A stretch of DNA of 64,000 nt from Solidesulfovibrio alcoholivorans DSM 5433 (GTDB lineage: Bacteria; Desulfobacterota; Desulfovibrionia; Desulfovibrionales; Desulfovibrionaceae), in contig NZ_JNJA01000003.1 of NCBI RefSeq assembly GCF_000702665.1, positions 124,001 through 188,000 of the forward strand, read 5' to 3'. Made by a program: the position numbers and the translations under genes. Positions 42,873 to 56,478 of this stretch are shown one piece after another. Below the pieces are notes generated by a model, which did not search any database, had not been told where the DNA came from, and was given only the letters and a program-made list of their open reading frames with translations. Each line of letters starts with the position of its first letter. Position 1 is the first letter of the stretch.

Positions 42873-43748
42873 ATGCGGATATCCGGTCAGGGAGGCGGCG
42901 GCGCGCAAACGCCAGGCGAAGGCAGGGACCGTTCCGATCCCGAGGCCTTCCGGCGCGGCCGGCGGCCCGGCCAGATCGTGCGCGGCCGGCTGGTTGCGCC
43001 GGGGCCGGACGGGCTTTACTGGATCGTCGTCGCCGGCCACAAGCTGCTCGCCAGCCTCGACCACGAGCCCGTCGCCGGCCGGGAGCTCGTCTTTCGCATC
43101 GAGCGCCTGGAGCCGGACCTCGTGCTCAAGGACATCACGCCGCCGCCCACGGCCGGCACGGACCCGGCCCTGCTTCTGGCCGCCCTGACCGAAGCCCGTT
43201 CCCGCTTCGAGCGCCGTTTGGCCCGGTTTTCCCCGCCCGCGCCGCCGCCCCTGGACCTGACCGCCGCGCGCCGCGCCTTTGCCGCCTTTCTCGCCGCAGA
43301 TGCCGCGGCCGGGGAGGATTACGCGGCCGCGCGCCACCTCCTGGCCCAAGCCCGGGGCTTCCTGCCGCAAAACGCAGGCACGGCGCATTACGTCCCCTGG
43401 ATGTTTCCCGGGCTGGCCCAATCCGAGCTTTTATGCGTACGCCTGCGCCCCGAAGACGGCGGCCCTGGCTGGTCGCTGCGGGCCTGCGGCAGGCTGGAGG
43501 AAGCGGGGCTCGTGGCCGCGATCGATTCCGTGCGGCCCGGGCAGGTGCTGTACCGGCTGCTGTGCGACCGCCGCGAGCAAGCCGAGGCGCTTCTCCCCGG
43601 CCTCGGCGCTGTCCGCTTCGGCCGGGCGACGCTCGCCCCGGCCTGCCAGGGCGTGGGGCCGCTGCCCACGGAGCTCGCCTCGGGCTTCCTGGCCCGGCTG
43701 CTGGCCGCCACGGCCCGGCCCTTTACGGGGCTGCGGCTTCGGGTATAA
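42873..43748 (+). CDS. Protein of unknown function; target gene of the downstream insertion
   Basis: A 291-residue soluble protein with a polar glycine-rich start, a small beta-rich domain ([20 protein letters not shown], then KLLASLDHEPVAGRELVFRI) and an alpha-rich middle. The chain ends LAATARPFTGLRLRV. It may be a flagellar hook-length or assembly accessory protein by position, but I cannot name it. The last 56 bp are repeated beyond the AT-rich insertion, so its present end may come from the inserted DNA. Confidence 0.7.
   Translation: MRISGQGGGGAQTPGEGRDRSDPEAFRRGRRPGQIVRGRLVAPGPDGLYWIVVAGHKLLASLDHEPVAGRELVFRIERLEPDLVLKDITPPPTAGTDPALLLAALTEARSRFERRLARFSPPAPPPLDLTAARRAFAAFLAADAAAGEDYAAARHLLAQARGFLPQNAGTAHYVPWMFPGLAQSELLCVRLRPEDGGPGWSLRACGRLEEAGLVAAIDSVRPGQVLYRLLCDRREQAEALLPGLGAVRFGRATLAPACQGVGPLPTELASGFLARLLAATARPFTGLRLRV
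43693..43748 (+). repeat. 56-bp direct repeat, left copy
   Basis: Begins CCCGGCTGCTGGCCGCCACG and ends CTGCGGCTTCGGGTATAA. It covers the 3' end, including the TAA stop, of the upstream gene. It is identical to 45231-45286 at 55 of 56 positions; the one difference changes Ala (GCC) to Thr (ACC). The sequence diverges directly after the stop. Confidence 0.92.
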
Positions 43749-44009
43749 ACTCTTAGCTGGGCCGTGGCACTGGGGATTGCCGAGGGCTGCGGGTATCCAG
43801 CGAGCTCACGTGACTTGTCTTTATTGTTTAACGGTTCGGATAACGTGATCATTTTTCTAGTATGAAGCATTTCCTGACACACCAGCAGAGACTGTTCTCA
43901 CTACGAAAGAGAGAATTAAGATAAGTCGGCAGAGTTCTCTCTTCATACGAGACACAATACCGCCTACACATCTTGGCGAGAAAAACATTTCACATTTGCG
44001 GAGGCTATT

Positions 44010-44909
44010 TTGGCACATAAAATCCGTATAGCAATAACAACATACAATAGATTTAACTACTTATCAAAATTGATTTCTTCACTAGACCGACTTGAAAGCG
44101 ATGTTGAAATATTTGTATTTGACAATGGTTCAACGGACAACACGCTTTGTTACATGGCTTCGATTTGCGCATCCAACAGAAGGATATTCTATCATCGAAA
44201 CTCGATAGGTCACAGTTTTGACCATAACTTTGAATCCGTAGTAACAACTTTTTCTGAAATGCCAAATGATTACACTATTCTCCTCGCCGACGACGATCGT
44301 ATTGACACTAATGTCATAAGAAATATCAAAGCAATCATCAATCAGCACGAGCCTGATTTTATCCAATTCAACTTTGCTACGTATAATTATATTGACGAAG
44401 TATTCAAAGTAATAACAAGATGCGGTCCTGAAAATGACAAAATAGTTTTTTACTCCTCTCCTGTTGAATACTTTAAAGATAGCTTCAAATCGATTCCTTG
44501 GTATTGTGGGCTTGTTGTTAAAAACAATATACTTGACATAAACAACACAAAAAAATTTAGAGGAACATATCATTCTTATATCGGAGGCCCCCTCGAATGG
44601 CTCGCAAATAAGTATTGCGAAACCGCATCATGTTCTATCATAAAAGTTTCATTAAAAGATGAAATGTTCTTTCTCAATCATGTAGACAGCATTAGAACCT
44701 GGACAAGCGAAGAAGGAAAGGTGTTTTCTTCAATTATTAATTTCTTTGAACACATACACCCGCTTTACAGAACAGCGTTTAAAGAAATGTTTATTGAGAA
44801 CTATTACAATAAGGGATATTATTCTATGCCAAAAAGACGCATTTACCTCGACGAGGCATCAAGAAACAGAAAACTTTATTTTTTTGACCAAAGCGATACA
44901 AGCATCTAG
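44010..44909 (+). CDS. Family 2-type glycosyltransferase (horizontally acquired)
   Basis: A 299-residue GT-A-fold transferase. The nucleotide-sugar-binding start is RIAITTYNRFNYLSKLISSL, followed by IFVFDNGSTDNTLCYMAS near residue 37 and the metal-binding LLADDDRIDTNVIRN near residue 95. The rest (FLNHVDSIRTWTSEEGKVFS) resembles sugar-transferring proteins of surface-glycan clusters. The start is a TTG with GGAGG five bases upstream. Codons are strongly AT-rich, unlike every neighbour. It adjoins the flagellar cluster, so flagellin or surface glycosylation is a reasonable guess, not shown. No acceptor can be read from sequence. Confidence 0.85.
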   Translation: MAHKIRIAITTYNRFNYLSKLISSLDRLESDVEIFVFDNGSTDNTLCYMASICASNRRIFYHRNSIGHSFDHNFESVVTTFSEMPNDYTILLADDDRIDTNVIRNIKAIINQHEPDFIQFNFATYNYIDEVFKVITRCGPENDKIVFYSSPVEYFKDSFKSIPWYCGLVVKNNILDINNTKKFRGTYHSYIGGPLEWLANKYCETASCSIIKVSLKDEMFFLNHVDSIRTWTSEEGKVFSSIINFFEHIHPLYRTAFKEMFIENYYNKGYYSMPKRRIYLDEASRNRKLYFFDQSDTSI

Positions 44910-45230
44910 TCTCCATTGAAGAGTATTTTTTTATTTATTATTGCCCTTACACGCTTTTATGAAGTCACTGCGTTATTACCAAACCGTTATCTATTTTGTG
45001 TCACTCTCTTGTGTCCACAAGAGAGATAGGCTATGCGCTCATGCTTGTCTTGCCGCGCATCTGTATCGATACCGGCACACTCCTTAATCTATTTATCCAC
45101 AGAGCATTGGCAGCCGTACTTGCCAACAGTCATATCGTATTGCACTTCTTCAACAATACAATGGTGTCTGGTTTTTTTTCGAGACATACTATATCGAAGG
45201 CTCATCATTCCTTCATCAACGCGATCCGTT
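44910..45230 (+). other. AT-rich gene-free flank of the island
   Basis: No convincing gene. A frame from GTG 44996 runs 96 codons into the right repeat and ends with the same C-terminus as the upstream gene (RPFTGLRLRV), but shows no recognisable protein before that. Contents seen: a T-rich stretch after the glycosyltransferase stop, a perfect 10-bp inverted repeat CTCTCTTGTG/CACAAGAGAG with a 2-base centre (45004-45025), and one TTATCCACA DnaA-box sequence (45093-45101). Confidence 0.6.
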
Positions 45231-45286
45231 CCCGGCTGCTGGCCGCCACGACCCGGCCCTTTACGGGGCTGCGGCTTCGGGTATAA
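45231..45286 (+). repeat. 56-bp direct repeat, right copy
   Basis: Matches 43693-43748 at 55 of 56 bases. It adjoins the native ubiD leader, so it is probably the original chromosomal 3' end of the upstream gene. Confidence 0.92.
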
Positions 45287-45287
45287 T
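45260..45287 (+). promoter_or_regulatory. Promoter-like sequence for ubiD inside the right repeat
   Basis: TTTACG (45260-45265), 16 bp, then a perfect TATAAT (45282-45287), 53 bp before the ubiD ATG. The last T of TATAAT lies just outside the repeat; in the left copy the hexamer reads TATAAA. Confidence 0.55.
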
Positions 45288-45339
45288 GATTCGGATCGGC
45301 CTGTGCCGGACCAAGACCGACAGCTCTGGAGCATTCTCG

Positions 45340-46785
45340 ATGGCATACAAGGACTTGCAGGATTTTTTGAAGCTGCTGGAGAAGAAAGGGGAACTGAAAC
45401 GCATTGCCGCTCCCCTTGCCCCCTACCTGGAGATCGCCGAAGTCACGGACCGGGTCTCCAAGGCCGTGGGGCCGGCGCTTCTCTTCGAAAAGCCCAAGGA
45501 CGCACGCTTTCCCGTGCTCACCAACATGTACGGCTCCTACCCGCGCATGCACCTCGCGCTCGAGTGCGACGACCTCGACGCGCTCGGCCGGCGCATTGAC
45601 GCCGTGCTCGAGATGGAAAAGCCGGAAGGCCTCATCGACAAGCTCAAACTGCTGCCCAAGCTCGCCAAGATGGCCGGCATCTTTCCCAAGACCGTATCGA
45701 CCGGCCGCTGTCAGGACGTGGTGCTGACCGGCGACGCCGTGGACCTCTCCATCCTGCCCGTGTTGACCACCTGGCCCGGCGACGCCGGGCCTTTCATCAC
45801 CCTGCCCGTAGTCATCACCAAGGACCCGGTCACGGGCAAGCGCAATGTGGGCATGTACCGCATGCAGGTCTACGACAAGAACACCACCGGCATGCACTGG
45901 CACCGCCACAAGGGCGGCGCACACCACCATGCGCTGTCGAAAAAATCCGGCGAACGCCTGCCCGTGGCCGTGGCCCTGGGGCCGGACCCGGCCTGCACCT
46001 ATGCCGCAACCGCCCCCCTGCCCGACGACATCGACGAATTCCTTTTCGCCGGCTTCCTGCGCCAGGCTCCGGTCGAGCTCGTGCGCTGCAAGACCGTGGA
46101 CCTCGAGGTGCCGGCGTCCAGCCAGTTCGTGCTCGAAGGCTACGTGGAGCCCGGCGAACTGCGCTGGGAAGGCCCCTTCGGCGACCACACGGGCTACTAT
46201 TCCCTGGCCGACGACTACCCGGTCTTTCACGTGACCGCGCTGACCCACCGCAGCGACGCCATCTATCCGGCCACCCTGGTCGGGCCGCCGCCCATGGAGG
46301 ACAGCTACATCGGCAAGGCCACCGAGCGCCTGTTCCTGCCGCTGATCAAGAAGCAGCTGCCCGAAGTCGTGGACATGAGCCTGCCGCTCGAAGGCGTCTT
46401 CCACAACTTCTGCTTCGTCTCCATCGACAAACGCTATCCCGGACACACGCGCAAGATCATGTACGCCATCTGGGGCCTCGGGCAGATGATGTTCACCAAG
46501 TTCATCGTGGTCGTGGACGCGAACGTCAACGTGCACAACACGGCCGAGGTGCTGTGGCGGCTCGGCAACAACGTCGATCCCCGCCGCGACGTGGTCATCG
46601 TGGACGGCCCCCTCGACGTGCTCGACCATGCCGCGCCCCTGCCCTGCTACGGCGGCAAGATGGGCATCGACGCCACGAAAAAGGGTCCCGAGGACGGCCA
46701 CATGCGCGACTGGCCCGACTCCCTGACCATGTCCGCGGACGTCAAGGCCCGCATCGACGCCCTGTGGGGCGAGCTGGGACTGTAA
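45340..46785 (+). CDS. UbiD-family (menaquinone-type) decarboxylase
   Basis: A 481-residue prenylated-FMN-dependent decarboxylase. The signature GKRNVGMYRMQVYDKNTTGM near residue 167 is followed by HWHRHKGGAHHH. The E-R-E catalytic set appears in NVGMYR and in FVLEGYVEPGELRWEGPFGD with HTGYYS (near residue 265). It probably acts in quinone biosynthesis, where anaerobes use UbiD relatives for menaquinone; the exact substrate is uncertain. The ATG at 45340 follows GGAG by nine bases; an upstream frame from 45286 would start at the promoter and is less likely. tag follows after 3 bp. Confidence 0.88.
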   Translation: MAYKDLQDFLKLLEKKGELKRIAAPLAPYLEIAEVTDRVSKAVGPALLFEKPKDARFPVLTNMYGSYPRMHLALECDDLDALGRRIDAVLEMEKPEGLIDKLKLLPKLAKMAGIFPKTVSTGRCQDVVLTGDAVDLSILPVLTTWPGDAGPFITLPVVITKDPVTGKRNVGMYRMQVYDKNTTGMHWHRHKGGAHHHALSKKSGERLPVAVALGPDPACTYAATAPLPDDIDEFLFAGFLRQAPVELVRCKTVDLEVPASSQFVLEGYVEPGELRWEGPFGDHTGYYSLADDYPVFHVTALTHRSDAIYPATLVGPPPMEDSYIGKATERLFLPLIKKQLPEVVDMSLPLEGVFHNFCFVSIDKRYPGHTRKIMYAIWGLGQMMFTKFIVVVDANVNVHNTAEVLWRLGNNVDPRRDVVIVDGPLDVLDHAAPLPCYGGKMGIDATKKGPEDGHMRDWPDSLTMSADVKARIDALWGELGL

Positions 46786-47954: not shown

Positions 47955-48209
47955 ATGGGCCAACCCGAGGAAGCTGACGCGACGTGGGTGGAAGTCTCGA
48001 GTTTTTGCCGGCCCTGCCGGCCCGAGCCGGCATTCGAGGAACTCGTGGCCGAGGATGTGGAACGCTGGCGCGGCATCGCCGTCGAGGCGGGCCTTGTCCC
48101 GGAAGACAACATCCGGGTGCGGCGCGGGGACGAGGAAGTGGCCGTGGAAGTGAGCCCCGCCCTCGACGCCTACTTCACGCCCGTGCAGACCCTGTGGAAG
48201 GCCGAGTGA
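47955..48209 (+). CDS. Small conserved-looking protein, function unknown
   Basis: An 84-residue acidic protein with a CxxC pair (FCRPCRPEPAFEELVAED) and no membrane segment. The ATG follows GGAGG. No family recognised. It converges on the YwbE-like gene. Confidence 0.5.
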   Translation: MGQPEEADATWVEVSSFCRPCRPEPAFEELVAEDVERWRGIAVEAGLVPEDNIRVRRGDEEVAVEVSPALDAYFTPVQTLWKAE

Positions 48210-48413
48210 TCACGCCCCGCCCTCGATTTCCCTGACCCGGCCGATCTGCCCGTCGGCCAGGCGCACCTTGATGCCGCGCGAATGGCGCGGCGCCTTGGTC
48301 AGGATGTCCTTGACCACGCCATGGGTGAGCGCGCCCGTGCGCTGGTCCTTTTTGAGCACGATGGCCACACGCAGCCCAGGGCGGATGTCGGCGCGCACCG
48401 TACCGTCAGGCAT
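48210..48413 (-). CDS. YwbE-family small protein
   Basis: A 67-residue protein matching the YwbE (DUF2196) family: IRPGLRVAIVLKKDQRTGAL, then THGVVKDILTKAPRHSRGIK and VRLADGQIGRVREI. It is a small beta-barrel-like fold of unknown role. The methyltransferase gene overlaps its start by eight bases, so the two are coupled. Confidence 0.8.
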   Translation of the reverse strand: MPDGTVRADIRPGLRVAIVLKKDQRTGALTHGVVKDILTKAPRHSRGIKVRLADGQIGRVREIEGGA

Positions 48414-55239: not shown

Positions 55240-56478
55240 ATGCATCATTTCGAGTACCGCGGCGGCGAACTCTACGCCGAGGACGTCCCCGTTTCCACCC
55301 TGGTCGCCGCCTACGGCACCCCGCTTTACATCTACAGCGCCGCCACCTTGCGCCGCCACTTCACGGCCTTCGACTCGGCCTTCGCCGCCCTGCCCCACCT
55401 CACCTGCTTTTCCGTCAAGGCCAATTCCAACCTGTCGGTACTCAAAACCCTGGCCGCACAGGGCGCGGGCGTGGACATCGTCTCGGGCGGGGAGCTTTAC
55501 CGGGCGCTGGCCGCCGGCGTCGATCCGGCCAAGATCGTCTATTCGGGCGTGGGCAAACGCGCCGTCGAGATCGAGCAGGCGCTCTCCGCCGGCATCCTCA
55601 TGTTCAACGTCGAGTCCATGGGCGAGCTGGAGCGCATCAGCGCCATCGCCGCGCGCCAGGGCAAAAACGCGAGCGTCAGCCTGCGCATCAACCCCGACGT
55701 CGATCCCAAGACCCATCCCTACATTTCCACGGGACTCAAGAAAAACAAGTTCGGCCTGGACATCGAAACGTCGCTTGCCGCCTACGCCCGGGCCAAGGAA
55801 CTGCCGGGTGTGACGCCCGTCGGCATCGACTGTCACATCGGCTCCCAGCTCACCTCCATCGACCCGTTCCTGGAGGCCCTCAAGAAGATACTGGCTTTCC
55901 GCGAGAAGCTTTGCGCCATGGGCATCGAGACGCATTACCTCGACCTCGGCGGCGGACTCGGCATCCAGTACAACGAGGAGGAGCCGCCCCATCCGCGCGA
56001 ATTCGGCCAGGCGCTGACCCAGGCCCTGGGCAAGCTGCCGCTCACGCTCATCCTCGAGCCCGGCCGCGTCATCGTCGGCAACGCCGGCATCCTGGTCACG
56101 GAGGTCGTCTACACCAAGAAGACCCCGAGCAAGGATTTCGTCATCGTGGACGCGGCCATGAACGACCTTATCCGGCCCTCGCTCTACGATTCCTACCATG
56201 CCCTCGGCGAAGTCCGCCCGGCCGGGCGCGAAACGCTCAACGTGGACGTGGTCGGCCCCATCTGCGAATCCGGCGATTTCCTGGCCCGGGACCGCGACCT
56301 GCCGGCCATGGCCCCCGGAGAACTCCTCGCCGTGTACTCGGCCGGGGCCTACGGCTTCACCATGTCCTCGAACTACAACTCACGGCCGCGCGCGGCCGAG
56401 GTGCTCGTGGACGGCGACAAGGTCACCCTGGCCCGCCGCCGCGAGACCTACGAGGATCTCGTCGCCCTGGAACGCTGA
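55240..56478 (+). CDS. lysA: Diaminopimelate decarboxylase
   Basis: A 412-residue PLP enzyme making lysine from meso-diaminopimelate. The PLP lysine is in [20 protein letters not shown]. Further motifs are [43 protein letters not shown], the active-site cysteine in [16 protein letters not shown], and [15 protein letters not shown]. It starts three bases after mutS. A more divergent paralogue lies at 61656. Confidence 0.95.

Follow-up and report, generated by a model that had tools for sequence, protein, structure and literature searches.

How did a single AT-rich glycosyltransferase gene come to lie between two unbroken genes of a GC-rich chromosome, enclosed by long direct repeats? We refer to the repeat-bounded segment as the islet, and to the whole stretch of DNA that was analysed (64,000 nucleotides) as the window. 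The features are listed below in window positions.

42873–43748, + strand: upstream ORF, 291 aa, whose last 56 bp are repeat 1 (from the ORF list, Pfam/NCBIfam and congener orthologues)
43693–43748, + strand: repeat 1, candidate attL; gene 3' end including the stop, plus a promoter-like block TTTACG-16-TATAAA (with the next base)
43749–44009, no strand: left arm of the islet; no gene recognised
44010–44909, + strand: glycosyltransferase family 2 gene, 299 aa, TTG start, GGAGG five bases upstream
44910–45230, no strand: right arm of the islet; no gene recognised; hairpin at 45004–45025
45231–45286, + strand: repeat 2, candidate attR; second copy of the gene end, with the native promoter-like block
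45260–45287, + strand: sigma70-like promoter TTTACG-16-TATAAT, 10/12 consensus bases, probably that of ubiD
45337–46785, + strand: ubiD-family gene, starting at an ATG conserved in congeners

Layout of the islet

A sequence-only reading of this locus had described two 56-bp direct repeats, 55/56 identical and 1538 bp apart, around an AT-rich glycosyltransferase gene, and had taken the repeat to be the 3' end of the upstream gene. Coordinates and composition bear this out. The repeats at 43693–43748 and 45231–45286 differ at one base only (G at 43713 in copy 1, A at 45251 in copy 2), and 1538 bp is their start-to-start distance. Copy 1 closes exactly at the TAA stop codon of ORF 42873–43748, the product of which has no match in Pfam or NCBIfam, while copy 2 ends 50 bp upstream of the ubiD-family gene start. 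The interior (43749–45230, 1482 bp) has 38.1% GC, compared with 66.6% for the whole window. As a chance control we looked for direct-repeat pairs of at least 30 bp, at least 90% identity and 0.2–12 kb spacing in 464 kb of the same genome (9% of it, in three contiguous blocks). Four pairs were found, and only the islet pair encloses an AT-rich interior.

The arms have some features of their own. The first 71 bp of the islet (43749–43819) are 63% GC while the remainder of the left arm is AT-rich, which hints at a patchwork or at an element end. Each arm also contains a hairpin of 9–10 pairs with an AGAGAG-type stem (43907–43943 and 45004–45025); these fold mildly better than shuffled sequences (z about -1.5). 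Neither arm could be traced to the neighbouring genes: of 14 comparisons that tried to derive the left arm from the native ubiD leader, the best was equalled by 34 of 300 shuffles, and 197 of 300 shuffles did as well as the right arm when compared with the gene upstream of the repeat.

Occurrence in relatives

The relatives were sampled at one genome per species, and the upstream protein was found in 38 of the 59 genomes, the islet's own included. In all 12 readable congeners (G001 and G003–G013) the site holds one repeat copy and no insert, with 47–51 bp between the stop codon of the upstream gene and ubiD. (The alignment has 13 rows for these 12 distinct congeners, as row L036 is the same sequence as G009.) Empty sites of this kind are what the sequence-only reading had proposed to look for, and since they occur in every readable congener the islet is a lineage-specific foreign insertion, a recent one judging by its composition. 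Two contrary pictures had been named as well. One was that relatives would all carry the glycosyltransferase with both repeats; a search of the 58 other genomes returned no match to the protein at E<=1e-8. The other was a long island decaying beside an integrase, and the readable congeners show none between the upstream gene and ubiD.

The idea of a family of cassettes with shared ends fared less well. With up to three mismatches allowed, a 33-bp core of the repeat has a single occurrence in each of 13 congeners and none in 45 other relatives, and no other cargo is seen at the site in the readable congeners. We find no sign of sister copies or of ongoing movement of the islet in the genomes examined, as far as sequence comparison can indicate.

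The nearest relative, G002 (95% DNA identity downstream; genome 69% complete), gives no information as a possible carrier: one contig breaks inside the upstream gene and another begins inside the repeat. Elsewhere, opposite window positions 48205–48225, G002 has a 1.8-kb insertion (contig C404, 2961–4782; GC 0.70) with reading frames that by eye look LysR-like and EamA-like. Since its GC is normal and the only repeat near its ends is 15 bases long, it was set aside as an ordinary indel. In G013 the ubiD match consists of two overlapping pieces, as from a frameshift.

The repeat as gene end and probable promoter

Where the amino acid is conserved, the codon too is unchanged in 119 of 132 comparisons over the final 12 codons of the upstream gene, against 1098 of 1892 elsewhere in it. 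Among the 76 twelve-codon stretches with enough comparisons, the top three (0.86–0.92) all fall within the last 15 codons, and the next best (0.83) starts at codon 21; the very last stretch was calculated separately. Protein constraint contributes to this conservation, since the amino acids of the last 12 codons are also conserved (132/144). The sigma70 match alone proves little, because the 3-kb region contains four sites of the quality of TTTACG-16-TATAAT and shuffles average 2.1. It is the synonymous conservation across the genus, together with the position, from which we infer that the 3' part of the repeat is probably the ubiD promoter, overlapping the end of the upstream gene. This role was not part of the sequence-only reading, and neither was the probable artefact described in the last section. 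The sixth base of the -10 element is A in 12 congeners and also after repeat 1, and T in the native copy of the window and in G002. The one repeat base that differs between the copies is G in copy 1, in G002 and in G009, so the A of copy 2 is derived or imported.

Gene end and promoter-like block are duplicated as one piece. The insertion appears in this way to have spared both neighbours: repeat 1 leaves the upstream gene complete and could drive the glycosyltransferase gene, and repeat 2 would retain the predicted ubiD promoter. Such a duplication would explain how the insertion was tolerated. The islet illustrates how a single foreign sugar-transfer gene can enter a tight gene border with neither neighbour broken, since the duplicated piece serves as a gene end and, probably, as a promoter too.

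The glycosyltransferase cargo

The product of ORF 44010–44909 matches Pfam Glycos_transf_2 (PF00535) over residues 7–129 (E 6.9e-12) and carries the motif DDD at residue 94; among PDB entries it shows weak similarity to SpsA (4.3e-6). Its gene has 34.6% GC and a GC3 of 0.35, compared with a GC3 of 0.89 for ubiD. Within family 2 the protein is an orphan among the relatives sampled; at E<=1e-12, a search of 395 genomes of the phylum returned only its own genome and one match of 27%. A phage or plasmid source was considered and rejected. The protein has no phage match, no PHROG and no relative among viral contigs, the islet DNA matches neither phages nor plasmids, and the single plasmid match of the protein is partial (31.5% identity over 41% of the query). 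In the relatives' genomes the islet DNA gave two short matches only, one of 25 bases in G031 and one of 29 bases to the left arm in G042, an order relative (E 0.003, in one of the 59 genomes searched); both were treated as chance. Our literature search returned no publication on the islet, and absence there is no proof that none exists.

Mechanism of insertion

The explanation we favour, and to which we give an even chance, is site-specific integration with the recombinase absent from the islet, which is CIME-like by anatomy. Foreign DNA with the glycosyltransferase gene, in the form of a small circle or of a larger element later cut down, would have entered this lineage in one integration event, at a single site where the upstream gene's 3' end overlaps the probable ubiD promoter. 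The most likely mechanism would be integration of the tyrosine-recombinase type. The attachment core of the element would reproduce the gene end as far as the stop codon. Integration would then restore the gene on the left, while the native gene end, with its promoter, would stay on the right; the recombinase would have worked in trans or since been lost. What argues for this is the single site copy, free of any insert, in all 12 readable congeners, and that the identity ends exactly at the stop codon, as for an att core that restores a gene end. The repeats would then be att sites produced by a recombinase, and their 56 bp fit the range of 8–60 bp given for tyrosine-recombinase att repeats in passages of one paper (PMC5704250).

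No recombinase is recognised inside the islet. The sequence-only reading had noted that none is encoded, and indeed none of the genome's matches to tyrosine (PF00589) or serine (PF00239) recombinases falls within the 64-kb window. The genome has 29 of the former, of which two are a mirrored pair and several are partial, and 13 of the latter. On the islet's contig, C3, the nearest match begins at 235776, some 66 kb away from the islet. It is possible that these recombinases act on the islet in trans. If a resident one can move it, the islet would be a cargo unit of very small size, well suited to testing mobilisation in trans.

Site-specific integration has several weak points. In the readable congeners no integrase-bearing element lies at the site, and the exact repeat core is absent from viral contigs. 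The 56-bp repeat showed no strong dyad symmetry when scanned crudely without gaps. Similarity between the two arms, direct or inverted, is no better than in shuffles (219 of 300 and 49 of 300 equally good, respectively). The inverted comparison, together with a direct repeat that at 56 bp is not short, also led us to reject a DDE transposon or MITE. Finally, bases 1–20 of the repeat differ from species to species yet are identical in both copies of the window, so a duplication of host sequence suits the data at least as well as an imported att site.

This last observation points to the main rival, illegitimate capture. Here the gene end would have suffered a staggered double-strand break or a replication fault, and a stray foreign fragment would have been used in the repair, with 56 bp of the host duplicated; there would be no recombinase and no att site, and the islet would be immobile. 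We consider capture possible, if on the doubtful side. It would account for the host's own allele in the species-variable bases of both copies, and it agrees with our finding no relatives of the islet, no other cargo or integrase at the site and no recognisable element ends. On the other hand, capture would make it mere luck that the identity halts exactly at the stop codon. Furthermore, the genome has no match to Ku, in a search run with 14 control genomes and giving a match in Bacillus subtilis, which makes classical end joining less likely, though other routes remain. If the islet is not movable, it is an instance of capture accompanied by a long duplication, in a genome with no Ku match.

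The host-allele identity of both copies would also follow from a two-step origin, in which gene end and promoter were first duplicated in tandem, or a circle with a copy of the host sequence arrived first, and homologous recombination across the 56 bp then inserted the cargo. We regard this as improbable. None of the 13 congeners has a second core copy, and 56 bp is scant homology for RecA.

Returning to site-specific integration, a further form of it would make the islet a minimal one-gene cassette that uses a host promoter overlapping a gene end as its attachment core and depends on another resident element for the recombinase. Although we think this very improbable, it would mean that every integration gives the cargo a ready promoter and leaves both neighbours still working.

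Comparison with known element classes

According to passages of PMC5704250, a CIME is an element without an integrase that has kept attL and attR. The islet shares with CIMEs and other integrase-less islets the direct repeats at a gene 3' end, the cargo between them and the lack of any recognised recombinase or transfer gene: only the glycosyltransferase gene is recognised inside, and eight short frames in the arms have no Pfam match at E<=1. Its anatomy also fits a flanking attL and attR of which one restores the end of the target gene, with the att function putative. It differs in being only 1.5 kb long with one gene between candidate att sites, in having no integrase-bearing relative at the site and in showing no tandem element between the flanking genes. 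As for an ICE, IME or prophage at the same site, all 12 readable congeners (one genome per species) are empty and viral contigs lack the exact core. By anatomy we place the islet among integrase-less islets, as a putative CIME.

The ssrA genomic islands of Dehalococcoides offer a second comparison. In the parts of the source that we draw on (PMC3146451), these islands are bounded by a repeat of a gene 3' end and 15 have no integration module, so that cargo within a duplicated gene end, and no integrase, are common to both. Those islands are many and in tandem at one RNA gene, with a 20-bp repeat and, when complete, a serine recombinase (PMC3146451); the islet, in contrast, is single, lies at a protein gene and has a 56-bp repeat. 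The serine recombinases reported there weaken the parallel for an event of the tyrosine type. Of what the sequence-only reading had called a small cassette with boundaries typical of site-specific integration, the foreign insertion, the integration-like ends and the missing recombinase stand, and the family with shared ends is not supported. The islet is of an ordinary kind, and its instructive detail is the duplication of a gene end together with a probable promoter.

A second copy in the assembly

The genome-wide search for the repeat that the sequence-only reading had suggested did reveal an extra copy: the assembly contains a second exact islet at C3:500031–501631. The 33-bp core, with up to three mismatches, has four matches in this genome, two of them in a mirrored part of C3. 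The last 13,845 bases of C3 are window positions 55321–41477 reversed, and the 20 kb before them are mirrored as well (8,680 bases against the window and 11,320 against C3:188001–199320). Altogether the mirrored region C3:470001–503844 matches window 41477–64000 and beyond. In addition, the 12,999 bases on each side of the C3 midpoint (334660/334661) are exact reverse complements. C3 is thus an exact palindrome in all stretches tested, with arms that we infer to be about 169 kb, and is probably an assembly error; perhaps it forms part of the 7.78% contamination estimated for this genome. The second islet is then probably an artefact of the palindrome, and no other true copy turned up.

The same error and contamination rating raise the suspicion that the islet itself was wrongly joined into the chromosome. 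We find this hardly credible, as both junctions are clean, both flanks continue as in congeners, and a false join would require identical 56 bp on both sides, though the assembler could have merged in a free circle with the repeat. We count one islet. A 32-base GC-rich match on contig C1 was read as chance. One pair of integrase matches is mirrored as well.
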